This document shows, in pieces, positions 22,558 to 32,880 of a stretch of DNA of 50,678 bases (positions within the stretch are counted from its first letter, which is position 1; the number at the start of each line of letters is the position of its first letter). The stretch is from Bacteroidales bacterium (lineage in GTDB: Bacteria; Bacteroidota; Bacteroidia; Bacteroidales; UBA10428), in the NCBI GenBank assembly GCA_016931575.1, contig JAFGEO010000033.1, forward strand, positions 1 to 50,678. Direction: 5' to 3'. Under the pieces are notes generated by a model. The model saw only the letters and a list, made by a program, of their open reading frames with translations. It ran no database searches and was not told the DNA's origin. Both the position numbers and the translations under genes were made by a program.

Positions 22558-23850
22558 TTAAAAGAAGTACCGTACAACAAACAGTATCGCCAGGATAACC
22601 AGGACCGGCGATAATTTTTTCCATTTTCCACTGAGTATCCGAATGGCTACATAGCTTATGATCCCGAAAGATATGCCTTCGCTGATGCTGAAAGCCAGTG
22701 GCATCATGATGATGGTAAGGAACACGGGAATAGCATCCAGGTAGTTTTCCAGGTCTATTTTAGTGATGGGGCTGATCATAAACAAGCCGATGATGATCAG
22801 TGCCGGAGCAGTAGCCGCAGCAGGGATCATCAGGAAAACAGGAGAAATGAATAAAACAAGGAGAAAACAAATAGCCACGATAAGGGCAGTAAGCCCGGTT
22901 TTTCCTCCAACAGCGATTCCCGCCGTACTTTCCACGTAGGTGGTTACCGTGCTGGTACCCAGCATGGCACCGACTGTGGTGCCGATCGAATCGGCCAGCA
23001 GGGCCTGCTTTGCTCTCGGGACTTTGCCGTTCCTGTCAAGCAGATTGGCTTTGGAGCTTACGCCAATGAGGGTGCCAACCGTATCAAACATATCTATAAA
23101 CAGGAAGGTGAACAGGACCACTAGGATATCCGGTTTCAGGATTCCGTGAAAATCCATTTTGAAGAATATGGGCCCCAGTCCTGCCGGGAGGGTAACAATA
23201 TTTTTCTCCGGCAATGTCGTGACGCCTAAGGGTATCCCGATGGCAGTTGCTACAACAATACCGATCAGTACGGCCCCTTTGACACGCAGGATGAGCAATA
23301 CAGAAATAGTCAGGAGTCCGGCCAGCGCTACCCAGGTCATGTGGTTGTCCATACTGCCCAGGGTGAGGAGGGTATTCGGATCCGAAATGATCAGCTCGGC
23401 ATTCTCAAATCCCATCAGCGCAATAAATAGACCTATTCCCACTGAAATGGCATGTTTTATCGGCAGGGGGATGCTGTTGACTATGGCCTCGCGGATATTG
23501 AACAGCGTAAGGATGATGAATATAATACCTTCGAGGAACACAGCCATAAGGGCGGTTTGCCAGCTGTATCCCATGCCGATGACCACCGTGTAGGCGAAAA
23601 AAGCATTCAGGCCCATCCCGGGAGCCAGGGCATAAGGAAGACGGGCAACAAATGCCATGATCAGTGTGGCAATGCAGGAAGCCAGCGCAGTGGCAGTGAA
23701 AAGAGCTCCTTTATGCATGCCCGTTTCACTCAGGATATTGGGATTCACCGCAAGGATATAGGCCATGGTCATAAAGGTCGTCAGACCGGCAATGATTTCC
23801 GTTGAATAGCTTGTCTTGTTTTTTTTCAGTTCGAAGAATCTGCTAAGCAT
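22558..23850 (-). CDS. NCS2-family purine (adenine/guanine/hypoxanthine) permease, AzgA type
   Basis: This 430-residue inner-membrane transporter has about 12-14 helices. The start MLSRFFELKKNKTSYSTEI and the motif TFMTMAYILAVNP are typical of AzgA/GhxP-type NCS2 proton symporters, which import adenine, guanine or hypoxanthine. The motif GTSTVTTYVESTAGIAVGGKTGLTAL matches the TM10 substrate region of the family. I chose ATG 23850 because a textbook promoter ends just upstream; a start at 23901 would lie within it. It lies next to the Tsx-like gene at 24029-24769 with its preQ1 riboswitch, so its substrate could be a queuosine precursor rather than a common purine. That is inference. Confidence 0.9.
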   Translation of the reverse strand: MLSRFFELKKNKTSYSTEIIAGLTTFMTMAYILAVNPNILSETGMHKGALFTATALASCIATLIMAFVARLPYALAPGMGLNAFFAYTVVIGMGYSWQTALMAVFLEGIIFIILTLFNIREAIVNSIPLPIKHAISVGIGLFIALMGFENAELIISDPNTLLTLGSMDNHMTWVALAGLLTISVLLILRVKGAVLIGIVVATAIGIPLGVTTLPEKNIVTLPAGLGPIFFKMDFHGILKPDILVVLFTFLFIDMFDTVGTLIGVSSKANLLDRNGKVPRAKQALLADSIGTTVGAMLGTSTVTTYVESTAGIAVGGKTGLTALIVAICFLLVLFISPVFLMIPAAATAPALIIIGLFMISPITKIDLENYLDAIPVFLTIIMMPLAFSISEGISFGIISYVAIRILSGKWKKLSPVLVILAILFVVRYFF

Positions 23851-23871
23851 GAGAATATGGTTTAGATTCTT

Positions 23872-23903
23872 CAAATATAAGAAGATAAGGGTCTGTCTCA
23901 AAA
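23872..23903 (-). promoter_or_regulatory. Promoter of the NCS2 permease gene
   Basis: The minus strand reads TTTTG (23899-23903), a 19-base spacer and TATATTTG (23872-23879), a perfect match to the Bacteroidota consensus. The leader would be only about 15 bases, so no riboswitch can fit there. Confidence 0.65.
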
Positions 23904-24028
23904 GGTATGCTCATCTTTTGGATAGCGTTTTTATCTTATTGGCAACCGATACCTTATTGTTTATAAAGAACAACAGGGATAAGATTAAAGAACAGCCCCT
24001 TCTTTATAAAAGCTGTGTTGTAACTGGC

Positions 24029-24769
24029 TTAGAACTCGTATTTCACCCCAAGGGTCGGAAACACCTCCACACGTTCACTGGCAAAGACAAAGTTCTTTGA
24101 AACCTTGAATTCGGAACCAAGGGAGAGGTGTTCGTTGAAGTTAAACCAGATCTGTGGTTCCGCATAGAGGGCAAGGATCTTATTATCCGTATTGCTAAAG
24201 AAATCATCCTGCGACCAGATATCCACATAACCTGCCAGGCTCACCCGGTAATTGAAAAGGGGATAGAACCAAACCAGGGTGAATTGGGCATCCGGGGCTG
24301 AGGAGCCTCTTGTGTTCTTGTAAAGCAGCATCGCGTTCAGCGACAGGTTGCCAAGCATGGCACCGTATTCCAGTCCGCCCAGCCAGGAACTCCGAAGGTT
24401 TGCACCCCAGATTGCCAGGGGCAAGACATCCCCATCATCGGGATAGATCACCAGCCCATCGTTGTACTCAACATGCAGCATCAGATTTTTCAGTCCTCTG
24501 GTTTCACTGAACCAGGGGATGTAAAAAGTCCGGGCGATTTCAAAATACCCCAGCGAGGCGCCCCGGGGCCGGTCAGTGGAATTGAACTCAAAATCCGCAA
24601 ACAGAAAGGTATAGCCGAGGCTGTCCGGTTTAAACAGTTCGAAAGTGCTCACAGGGAAATTGTGTTTACTGCCATCTTCCTGTTTTCCGAAATCGTAATG
24701 CAGTTGAATGTTTTGTGCTGAGGCAGAGAGGGACAGTACTGCCAGAATTAGTAAAATATTCTTTTTCAT
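24029..24769 (-). CDS. DUF5020/Tsx-like outer-membrane beta-barrel protein
   Basis: The 246-residue protein has a Sec signal (about 1-18, ASAQ) and a mature start NIQLHYDFGK that matches the DUF5020 family. The remaining sequence alternates polar and hydrophobic residues with many aromatic strand ends and finishes with C-terminal Phe (GVKYEF), as expected of an outer-membrane barrel. The length and FADFEFNS-type strand resemble Tsx, the nucleoside channel. My memory of the family, not a search, supports the name. The leader carries a promoter, a hairpin and a preQ1-I-like aptamer ending 4 bases before the ATG, implying control by a queuosine precursor. The adjacent NCS2 permease fits a two-membrane uptake route. 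An alternative is a general nucleoside channel. Confidence 0.75.
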   Translation of the reverse strand: MKKNILLILAVLSLSASAQNIQLHYDFGKQEDGSKHNFPVSTFELFKPDSLGYTFLFADFEFNSTDRPRGASLGYFEIARTFYIPWFSETRGLKNLMLHVEYNDGLVIYPDDGDVLPLAIWGANLRSSWLGGLEYGAMLGNLSLNAMLLYKNTRGSSAPDAQFTLVWFYPLFNYRVSLAGYVDIWSQDDFFSNTDNKILALYAEPQIWFNFNEHLSLGSEFKVSKNFVFASERVEVFPTLGVKYEF

Positions 24770-24772
24770 ACT

Positions 24773-24803
24773 CTAGTTTTTTACGTGGTTAGCTAGGACA
24801 CGC
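24773..24803 (-). promoter_or_regulatory. Candidate preQ1-I riboswitch
   Basis: Read on the minus strand, stem P1 is CGTG (24802-24799) and CACG (24787-24784), closing a loop TCCTAGCTAAC. After it comes TAAAAAACTAG (24783-24773). The loop CTAG can pair with the tail CTAG to make the H-type pseudoknot, and the A6 tract fits the minor groove of P1. CTAGCTA and AAAAAACTA match the known Bacillus preQ1-I aptamer almost base for base. The pseudoknot ends 3 bases before the ATG at 24769, so ligand binding should block translation initiation. P1 is short but extendable by a G-T pair at its base. Confidence 0.72.
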
Positions 24804-24804
24804 C

Positions 24805-24821
24805 GCTATGGTTTTCATAGC
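24805..24821 (-). ncRNA. Leader hairpin 5' of the preQ1-like aptamer
   Basis: GCTATG, the loop AAAAC and CATAGC form a perfect 6-bp hairpin immediately 5' of the aptamer on the minus strand. With the predicted start site near 24827, this hairpin plus the aptamer make up nearly the whole leader. It may protect or help fold the RNA. Confidence 0.45.
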
Positions 24822-24833
24822 TTACGAGGGCGA

Positions 24834-24864
24834 CAAAAGTAAATTAATTTTGGGAAAGTCACAA
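24834..24864 (-). promoter_or_regulatory. Promoter of the DUF5020/Tsx-like gene
   Basis: The minus strand reads TTG (24862-24864), a 20-base spacer and TACTTTTG (24834-24841), an exact TAnnTTTG box. The start site is expected near 24827, which places the aptamer within a roughly 58-base leader. Confidence 0.55.
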
Positions 24865-25013: not shown

Positions 25014-25026
25014 TGCAGGTGTGACC

Positions 25027-25719
25027 ATGAAAACTTACCGGCATATTTTTTTCGACCTGGATCGTACACTATGGGATTTTGAAAAAAACTCTGCAGAAAC
25101 TTTGTTAAGCATACACGAGGAATTTAGTCTGGGGGAGCAGATCCCCGACCAGGACCTGTTCATCGTGAAATACAATTATTTTAACGACCACCTTTGGGAT
25201 GAGTTTAAGGCAGGGACCATTAAAAAGGCTGAATTACGGGTCAGGCGTTTCGAGCTTCTCCTGGCTTATTTCGACATCAGGGACGAGGAACTGGTTAGTA
25301 AGATCAGTCGCTTTTACCTGAACACCAATCCCCTGAAAAAAGAATTGATACCCGGCGCAAAAGAGACCCTGGAATACCTGCATGGAAAATATGAACTCTA
25401 TGTTATTTCGAATGGCTTTTACGATGTGCAGTTAACAAAACTCATCAGTTCAGGCATTTCGAAATATATCCGGAAAACTTTTACTTCGGACCGGATTGGC
25501 ATTGCCAAACCAAAACCCGGGATTTATAACTATGCGCTGAGTTCAGTTAATGCGCGCAAAGCAGAGTCTGTCATGGTAGGTGATGATGCCGTAAACGATG
25601 TCCACGGGGCGCATTATGCAAAAATTGACCAGGTGTACTTCAACAGGAACGGGATTCCCAGCCGGATCCCGCCAACCTGGGAAATAACTAATCTTCTTCA
25701 GTTAAAGGAAATCTTTTAG
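25027..25719 (+). CDS. yjjG: YjjG-family noncanonical pyrimidine nucleotidase (HAD)
   Basis: The 230-residue HAD phosphatase begins MKTYRHIFFDLDRTLWDFEKN, the YjjG-type motif I in which Arg replaces Gly after the second Asp. Motif II ISNGF and motif IV GDDAVNDVHGA are also present, and the cap carries the Trp/Tyr-rich C1 helices. YjjG dephosphorylates noncanonical nucleoside monophosphates such as 5-halo-dUMP and protects against mutagenic analogues. It begins at ATG 25027, supported by a promoter box 13 bases upstream. It is convergent with dnaB, with only 5 bases between the stops. Confidence 0.92.
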   Translation: MKTYRHIFFDLDRTLWDFEKNSAETLLSIHEEFSLGEQIPDQDLFIVKYNYFNDHLWDEFKAGTIKKAELRVRRFELLLAYFDIRDEELVSKISRFYLNTNPLKKELIPGAKETLEYLHGKYELYVISNGFYDVQLTKLISSGISKYIRKTFTSDRIGIAKPKPGIYNYALSSVNARKAESVMVGDDAVNDVHGAHYAKIDQVYFNRNGIPSRIPPTWEITNLLQLKEIF

Positions 25720-31703: not shown

Positions 31704-32834
31704 TCAGAGGCGCTGTCCGAGAATAGTTACCATTTCTTGTTTCCAGGATCCGAAACTGCCTTGTCCGATGTTTTCCCTGGCTTCCTTCATCAGCCTTTGG
31801 TAAAAAGCGAGGTTGTGGATGCTGGCAATCTGTGCACCTAGCAATTCTCCTGAAATTATAAGGTGCCTAAGGTAAGCTTTTGAATAATTTTTATCAACAT
31901 ACGAGCTGCCGTCTTCATCAACTGGTGAGAAATCATCGCTCCACTTCCTGTTTTTAATATTAATGATTCCTTTTTGTGTGAAAAGCATGCCATTTCTTCC
32001 GTTGCGGGTAGGCATCACGCAGTCGAACATATCCACCCCCATGGCAATGGCCTCCAACAGATTGATCGGAGTTCCCACCCCCATCAGGTAGCGGGGTTTC
32101 TCCACAGGAAGTATCTGGGTAACCTCGCTGAGCATCGCATACATATCTTCAATGGGCTCTCCGACAGACAGCCCACCGATGGCATTTGCTTCCATATCCC
32201 AGGCGGCGATGACTTCCGCAGACTGCTTTCGGAGATCTTTATAAACACTTCCCTGGACAATCGGCAGAAAATGCTGTCTGTGTTCATACCTGTCCTGTGT
32301 GCCCCTGAAATGTTTTATTCCCCGCTCAAGCCAGCGGTGGGTAAGTTCCATGGATTTTTTGGCAGCCTTGTATTCGCAAGGATAGGGAGTACATTCATCA
32401 AATGCCATGATCAGATCGGCACCGATATCCCGCTGGATCTCAACAATGTTTTCAGGTGTGAAGAGATGCTTCGAGCCGTCGATGTGGGAGCTGAAATGCG
32501 CTCCTTCCTCCTTCAGCTTCCGGTTATCAGCCAACGAAAAAACCTGGTAACCACCGCTGTCCGTAAGCATTGGTCGGTCCCAGCCGATAAATTGGTGCAG
32601 CCCGCCCGCTTTCCTGATAAGCTCAATTCCGGGTCGCAGGTACAAATGGTAAGTGTTGCCAAGAATAATTTGAGCCTGTATGTCTTCACTGAGTTCGCGC
32701 TGATGCACGCCTTTTACAGTGCCTGCGGTGCCAACCGGCATGAAAACAGGGGTCTTTATCGTGCCGTGACCGGTTTCAATTATGCCTGTCCGGGCTTTGG
32801 TAGACGGATCTTTCTGAAGAATTTTAAAAAACAT
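31704..32834 (-). CDS. tgt: tRNA-guanine transglycosylase lacking the zinc cysteines
   Basis: Tgt swaps guanine-34 of tRNAs with GUN anticodons for preQ1 on the way to queuosine. The 376-residue TIM-barrel protein has active-site DSGGYQVFSL (D92), GGLSVGEP and DMFDCVMPTRNGRNG with the nucleophilic Asp. In Zymomonas-type Tgt the zinc is held by CxCxxC and a His; here these three positions read G309, S311 and D314, while the His (H340) remains. This pattern occurs in some Bacteroidota, so it is a clade trait rather than decay. ATG 32834 fits the family and the promoter upstream. It links directly to the preQ1-like riboswitch about 7 kb away. Confidence 0.95.
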   Translation of the reverse strand: MFFKILQKDPSTKARTGIIETGHGTIKTPVFMPVGTAGTVKGVHQRELSEDIQAQIILGNTYHLYLRPGIELIRKAGGLHQFIGWDRPMLTDSGGYQVFSLADNRKLKEEGAHFSSHIDGSKHLFTPENIVEIQRDIGADLIMAFDECTPYPCEYKAAKKSMELTHRWLERGIKHFRGTQDRYEHRQHFLPIVQGSVYKDLRKQSAEVIAAWDMEANAIGGLSVGEPIEDMYAMLSEVTQILPVEKPRYLMGVGTPINLLEAIAMGVDMFDCVMPTRNGRNGMLFTQKGIINIKNRKWSDDFSPVDEDGSSYVDKNYSKAYLRHLIISGELLGAQIASIHNLAFYQRLMKEARENIGQGSFGSWKQEMVTILGQRL

Positions 32835-32852
32835 AGTCGAAAAAATACGGGG

Positions 32853-32880
32853 CAAAGATAGGTATTGTGAAAAATATCAA
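32853..32880 (-). promoter_or_regulatory. Promoter of tgt
   Basis: The minus strand reads TTG (32878-32880), a 17-base spacer and TATCTTTG (32853-32860). Spacing is at the short end of the Bacteroidota range. The leader to ATG 32834 is about 12 bases. Confidence 0.5.

Follow-up and report, generated by a model that had tools for sequence, protein, structure and literature searches.

The locus lies in a 50,678-nucleotide stretch of a Bacteroidales genome (analysed over its whole length and referred to here as the window), and centres on a minus-strand gene (24029..24769) for a predicted outer-membrane barrel of the DUF5020 family (PF16412, E 2.9e-30), the gene that the leader element described below would control. 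Downstream of it on the same strand lies a gene for an NCS2 permease (Xan_ur_permease, 22558..23901; PF00860, E 1.8e-46), and on its other side a HAD hydrolase gene (25021-25719) runs divergently from it; by eye, such a hydrolase gene also stands beside DUF5020 in other family members, e.g. at L023, L031, L032, L035, L036 and L043. The window also holds tgt (31704..32855, minus strand; TIGR00430, E 1.9e-145), which encodes tRNA-guanine(34) transglycosylase, a user of preQ1, itself a precursor of a modified base of tRNA. An AlphaFold model of the DUF5020 protein built with three sequences consisted mostly of strands, with a mean pLDDT of 59. When this low-confidence model was searched using Foldseek, the best matches were outer-membrane barrels, with Tsx at rank 10 and a TM of about 0.5, and by sequence no solved structure matched better than E 0.49. 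The description of the barrel as Tsx-like, made in an earlier sequence-only reading of this DNA, was therefore not established, as the model resembles many outer-membrane barrels.

Upstream of the DUF5020 start codon (ATG, 24769..24767), the minus strand carries, in 5' to 3' order, a TTG-N20-TACTTTTG motif (24834..24864, with the TTG at 24864..24862 and TACTTTTG at 24841..24834), which we take, by its consensus, to be a Bacteroidota-type promoter; a 6-bp hairpin, GCTATG/CATAGC (24805..24821); and a core (24773..24802) that reads CGTG-TC-CTAG-CTAAC-CACG-TAAAAAA-CTAG and is followed by AGT and then the ATG. The leader layout that had been claimed, namely a promoter, a 6-bp hairpin, a CGTG/CACG stem, a CTAG/CTAG pseudoknot and a tail ending 3 bases before the ATG, can thus be read directly in the sequence. 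A first helix, P1, pairs CGTG (24802..24799) with CACG (24787..24784), and a second, P2, pairs CTAG (24796..24793) with the CTAG at 24776..24773, whose end lies 3 bases 5' of the start codon. Within the core, the helices are joined by loop L1 (TC), between the 5' strands of P1 and P2, by loop L2 (CTAAC) and by loop L3 (TAAAAAA, 24783..24777). The last base of L2, C24788, lies directly 5' of the P1 3' strand and would be the specificity C. In PMC11625349, type II preQ1-I riboswitches are defined by AC before the P1 3' strand, an A-rich L3 and a Watson-Crick P2, and the window's core has both the AC and the A-rich L3. The element amounts to a complete preQ1-I type II pseudoknot, and its assignment as a riboswitch is firm. 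Thermodynamic folding of the site gave a z of -1.05, which is uninformative because the pseudoknot lies outside the folding model. Both sister DUF5020 leaders (G395 and G396, of the same genus) also have TAnnTTTG about 30 bases 5' of P1; no 6-bp hairpin was seen by eye in either of them, and the hairpin is therefore probably no part of the aptamer or switch.

At the gathering threshold, the Rfam preQ1-I model (RF00522) reported no match in the window, nor did Rfam report one at E <= 10 in stretches of 251 and 45 bases, and the best RF00522 match in the window's genome lies elsewhere (E 0.7). A scan of 60 relatives with this model gave nothing above its cut-off, and in our judgement the sub-threshold matches there are mostly chance. 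The RF00522 gathering cut-off of 39 bits is a level of detection, with no structural definition attached. The absence of an Rfam match to the leader is an outcome that the first reading had named as refuting it, yet this negative is weak rather than decisive, because the same library reports RF00522 at the element in only one of nine element-bearing queC/yhhQ loci (L338), and there at 24.4 bits, below the cut-off, and because a model built from such loci (R2, described below) does find the site.

A descriptor based on the preQ1-I consensus, which accepts a typed Bacillus aptamer and does not accept a typed Thermoanaerobacter one, found a single site in the window, 24773..24802 (given once with P1 at 4 bp and once at 5 bp). 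In 60 first-order Markov sequences matched to the window in composition, 6.08 Mb over both strands, it found none. The bare letters are not rare: the pairing-free pattern CTAGNTAACN{3,7}AAAAAACTA occurred in 1 of 395 genomes of the phylum versus 6 for the reversed control pattern, and a looser CTANNTAAC form in 7 of 99 relatives versus 14 of 99 for its reversed control. It is the pairing, the position and the conservation that carry the case. Four of the seven pattern matches in relatives were taken as chance, and two of these four, when checked, proved to lie inside open frames. Over 84,980 genomes a pattern search gave seven stretches, two of which are in the sister genomes and five of which lack a P1 partner; these five were likewise taken as chance, three of them being one site in close Sphingobacterium relatives.

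Elements of the same kind recur before queuosine genes. When a looser descriptor was run over 357 loci (1.98 Mb, both strands, some overlapping), it gave 44 matches, as opposed to 3 when the sequence was reversed; those close to a start codon came to 27 once redundancy was removed, as opposed to 0 in the reversed sequence. Three of these 27 belong to DUF5020 leaders and 22 to leaders of queC or yhhQ; in the latter 22, the strand is fixed and the element is separated from the start codon by 0 to 6 bases. The remaining two (L180, and L197 at 3035) were taken as chance. A covariance model, R1, matched 26 of 90 queC loci at E <= 0.001 and six further at E < 0.05, some of these loci being rows of R1 itself; at L304, L309 and L313 the match lies about 90 to 105 bases before queC. 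A second model, R2, was built from 15 rows, all of them queC/yhhQ leaders from outside the window's genus. Applied to the window, R2 picked out the site at 29.7 bits (E 2e-4), the next-best match having an E of 2.4, and it recovered each of the three DUF5020 leaders, with E values from 0.00024 to 0.00068. As is characteristic of preQ1-I type II, homologous leaders are thus found before queuosine genes. In same-genus genomes with a cellular queC, the element precedes that gene in three of four (G399, G400 and G402); the queC leader of the fourth, G401, is without it, as is the queF-queC leader of G403. No element was found before the yhhQ genes examined from family f1 (L167 to L176, L358 to L364), and one is present before the yhhQ of G424 (L177).

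Variants were also seen. Weaker matches at queC loci (L278, L279, L284, L316, L319, L321 and L322) keep CGTG...CACGTAAAAAACA, but their first loop is longer and their P2 has changed; they may represent a separate subtype of the preQ1-I switch in Bacteroidales. On the minus strand of L046 (1501-1547, in G445), a form with UC before the P1 3' strand precedes queC and scores 27.1 bits, under the Rfam cut-off; it is plausibly a type I preQ1-I element.

The two helices were then assessed by covariation in 20 distinct rows. Since the descriptor that selected these rows demands pairing, the percentage of paired positions is no evidence. The outer pair of P1 appears as CG, AU and GC and its third pair as UA, GC and AU; in P2, the third pair is UA or AU, and the outer pair CG or AU with one mismatch. 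Cells changed on both sides numbered 15, versus 3.1 in shuffles, and the covariation score was 0.314, versus 0.048 in shuffles and at most 0.122 for slid structures. Compensatory changes were seen at 4 of 8 pairs (shuffle mean 2.0, with 10 of 500 shuffles reaching 4), and they fall in P1 and in P2 alike, as in an H-type pseudoknot. In a further test, anchored on unpaired letters only, 21 distinct places were found upstream of DUF5020, NCS2 and queuosine genes: all three free pairs of P1 form in 20 and all three free pairs of P2 in 21. At L112, the one place that deviates, the pattern slipped in register. L116 is absent from the list, though it is found by the model and has a leader that conforms to the pattern. 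These data bear on whether the conserved core might instead be a DNA operator for a protein regulator, with no RNA involved. Such an operator would account for the short inverted repeats in the core and for its near invariance in the three DUF5020 leaders, but not for compensatory changes in both pseudoknot helices, nor for the fixed strand and start-codon position in the 22 queC/yhhQ leaders, and we consider it very improbable. With the R2 match, the covariation of both helices and the presence of the element before queC and yhhQ, the proposal that a preQ1-I-like riboswitch precedes the barrel gene is well borne out.

DUF5020 itself is present in 28 of the 60 relatives searched (the window's genome included) and in 98 of 393 genomes of the order; the regions around the gene were collected for all of these 98 except G487, in which the match is weak and broken by stops. 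In G395 and G396, the two other same-genus genomes in which the leader of the gene can be read, the core lies directly before the DUF5020 start, identical to that of the window in the former (30/30 bases) and differing in the latter by one change in loop L2 (29/30), in front of proteins 59% and 56% identical to the window's respectively and behind upstream leader sequence that differs. When R1 was run over sets of 68 sources (window included), 100 sources and 19 sources (11 of them DUF5020 regions), with some loci repeated between sets, no above-chance element was found directly before DUF5020 at the other loci searched. The expectation that the pseudoknot would be conserved and covary in related leaders was upheld across the leaders of queuosine genes; directly before DUF5020, among the DUF5020 loci searched, the element was found in three genomes only, all of the window's genus. 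The gene of a third same-genus relative, G398 (L033), lies at a contig end, the first 106 bases of which look like DUF5020 coding sequence folded back on itself, probably an assembly artefact.

A second link between the element and DUF5020 was found in G418, a genome of the same order and another family. There the element (L197:5057-5087) heads the genes yhhQ-queC-queF-DUF5020, all in one direction, with yhhQ matching TIGR00697 (queuosine precursor transporter), queC matching TIGR00364, queF matching TIGR03139 and DUF5020, after a gap of 49 bases, matching PF16412 at E 6.5e-52. Together with the direct leader in the window's genus, this operon therefore places DUF5020 under the element in two separate arrangements. 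Among 100 DUF5020 neighbourhoods, that of G418 is the only one with queC, queF or yhhQ; queA is matched in two further neighbourhoods. The company that the element keeps also speaks to its ligand. Guanine analogues in general should be accepted by a specificity C that recognises the guanine face, and nucleobase permeases of the NCS2 type are among the neighbours of DUF5020, so that the preQ1-I fold might here serve another guanine-like ligand, such as guanine or queuine. We regard this as improbable, as the ligand-contact positions of the Bacillus and Thermoanaerobacter structures keep their letters here, and leaders homologous to this one precede queC and yhhQ, which are known preQ1 targets. 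We therefore infer that the ligand is preQ1.

In light of this, it is of interest which queuosine genes accompany DUF5020. The window's genome (G000) has tgt and queA, and profile searches gave no convincing match to queC or queF; with this gene set it should need imported preQ1, and on gene content it appears both to depend on such import and to have lost preQ1 synthesis. A similar pattern was seen in family f1, in which 16 genomes were tested for both DUF5020 and QueC (PF06508). All ten DUF5020-positive genomes lack a QueC match better than E 1e-6 (the best being E 2.8e-6 or weaker), and all six DUF5020-negative genomes have QueC at E 1.8e-29 or better. The weak matches in the positive genomes cover only the first part of the profile, some of them passing the low cut-off of PF06508, and are read as other PP-loop proteins. 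One of the six negative genomes, G397 (L121), is 66% complete, and its divergent QueC, which by eye sits among phage-like genes, is possibly phage-borne. QueF (PF14489) was not found in G000, G395, G396, G398, G404, G405, G406 or G409; G408 has a match over the cut-off (E 5.9e-17) and G407 one below it (E 9e-4). A QueA match was found in 25 of 26 genomes, among them G000. PF02592 (YhhQ) was found at E <= 1e-53 in all ten DUF5020-positive f1 genomes and in none of the six negative ones, and the carrier in G000 matches TIGR00697, the queuosine precursor transporter profile. By eye, the f1 carriers form two unlike subgroups, and the TIGR00697 cut-off is passed by one member each of three PF02592 subgroups. 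The third of these also occurs in the QueC-positive G399, and PF02592 carriers were therefore set aside as a simple separator of the two groups.

Overall, the gene content of f1 fits import of preQ1. The mutual exclusion of queC and DUF5020 in this family rests on few evolutionary changes: on a poorly resolved QueA tree, whose 12 rows come from one outsider and 11 of the 16 f1 genomes, two changes are enough to explain the DUF5020/queC label, and no more are needed in 117 of 500 label shuffles. Across the order the association is reversed, with queC in 45 of 98 DUF5020-positive versus 75 of 295 negative genomes (Fisher p 2e-4, kinship uncorrected), and the idea of DUF5020 as a general marker of auxotrophy was dropped. 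The suggested role of the barrel, as a queuosine-precursor port, draws support from the aptamer-headed operon of G418 and from the want of a convincing queC or queF in the window's genome.

Elsewhere, DUF5020 is often seen in the company of permeases. A co-directional NCS2 gene lies within 500 bp downstream of DUF5020 at 48 of 99 other loci, and at L010, L011, L012 and L014 DUF5020 is flanked by NCS2 permease genes on both sides, which argues for a probable general role in the uptake of purine-like compounds, preQ1 being itself a purine analogue. Since this pairing is so much commoner than the one neighbourhood in 100 with queC, queF or yhhQ, the ancestral cargo may have been ordinary purines. 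It is then conceivable that the preQ1 riboswitch is real and that the barrel still carries ordinary purines or nucleosides, with preQ1 only reporting on purine/7-deazapurine pools, as the NCS2 genes downstream of and around DUF5020 would suggest. We think this unlikely for the window, however, given that DUF5020 in G418 follows yhhQ-queC-queF under the same element, and that the window's genome keeps queA and has no convincing queC or queF. Immediately upstream of the NCS2 gene of the window (23880-23910, minus strand) stands TTG-N19-TATATTTG, which we presume, again by its consensus, to be a Bacteroidota-type promoter. The NCS2 gene may thus have its own promoter and escape control by the riboswitch. 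A terminator-like hairpin lies after DUF5020, at no more than the level of shuffled sequence.

Taken together, these data lead us to favour a reading in which a preQ1-I type II riboswitch in the leader serves as a translational off-switch for an outer-membrane port for preQ1 or related 7-deazapurines, to which we give a probability of roughly 0.7. In this scheme, when preQ1 is plentiful, it would fill the pocket between P1 and P2 and the A-rich tail would dock, so that CTAG/CTAG would close three bases before the ATG and block ribosomes from the DUF5020 mRNA. When preQ1 is scarce, the tail would be free and the barrel would be made. Repression of translation start is the likely mode of control: in Bacteroidota, Shine-Dalgarno pairing plays only a small part, and it would be enough to mask the A-rich stretch ahead of the start. 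Through the barrel, preQ1 or a related 7-deazapurine would then cross the outer membrane of a cell that has kept QueA and Tgt and apparently lost synthesis, with a second step via an inner-membrane carrier, either YhhQ or the adjacent NCS2 permease. As to how this came about, we lean, with somewhat less assurance, towards DUF5020 here being a queuosine-precursor outer-membrane channel that was recruited from a purine-uptake pair and came under the control of a preQ1 riboswitch once preQ1 synthesis had been lost from the lineage. If so, a switch that governs synthesis elsewhere governs the outer door here, and a named barrel family, DUF5020, gains a testable cargo.

The switch belongs to a known class, and its DUF5020 target gene is new to the open literature as searched by titles and the starts of abstracts, in which we found no recognisable report of a preQ1 riboswitch paired with DUF5020 and no description of preQ1 crossing the outer membrane in preQ1-dependent Gram-negatives. 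According to PMC11625349, types I and II of preQ1-I riboswitches are already known in Bacteroidota. In a 2024 survey (PMC11130926), the terms outer membrane, porin, riboswitch and NCS2 are all absent from the main text.

The window's element resembles preQ1-I type II (RF00522) in its H-type pseudoknot, the AC before the P1 3' strand, the A-rich L3 and the G-C pair closing P1, and in that elements of its type are linked to queC and yhhQ. It differs from RF00522 in its 4-bp P1 and compact loops and in going unreported by the Rfam model, which misses a Bacteroidales form that recurs before queC and yhhQ. The membrane proteins previously associated with uptake of queuosine precursors, YhhQ/QPTR (COG1738) and QueT/QrtT, act in the inner membrane, whereas DUF5020 is a predicted outer-membrane barrel; in G418 the two meet, with yhhQ heading the riboswitch operon that ends in DUF5020. 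Like the Tsx nucleoside channel of enterobacteria, DUF5020 would be an outer-membrane barrel, and of similar size; its low-confidence model, however, resembles many other barrels equally well or better. The Bacillus preQ1-I aptamer, as described in PMC11625349, has a P2 of Watson-Crick pairs, as does the element in the window. What sets the window's element apart from known preQ1-I switches is the target, which in their case is a synthesis gene or an inner-membrane carrier and here is the gene for a predicted outer-membrane barrel.
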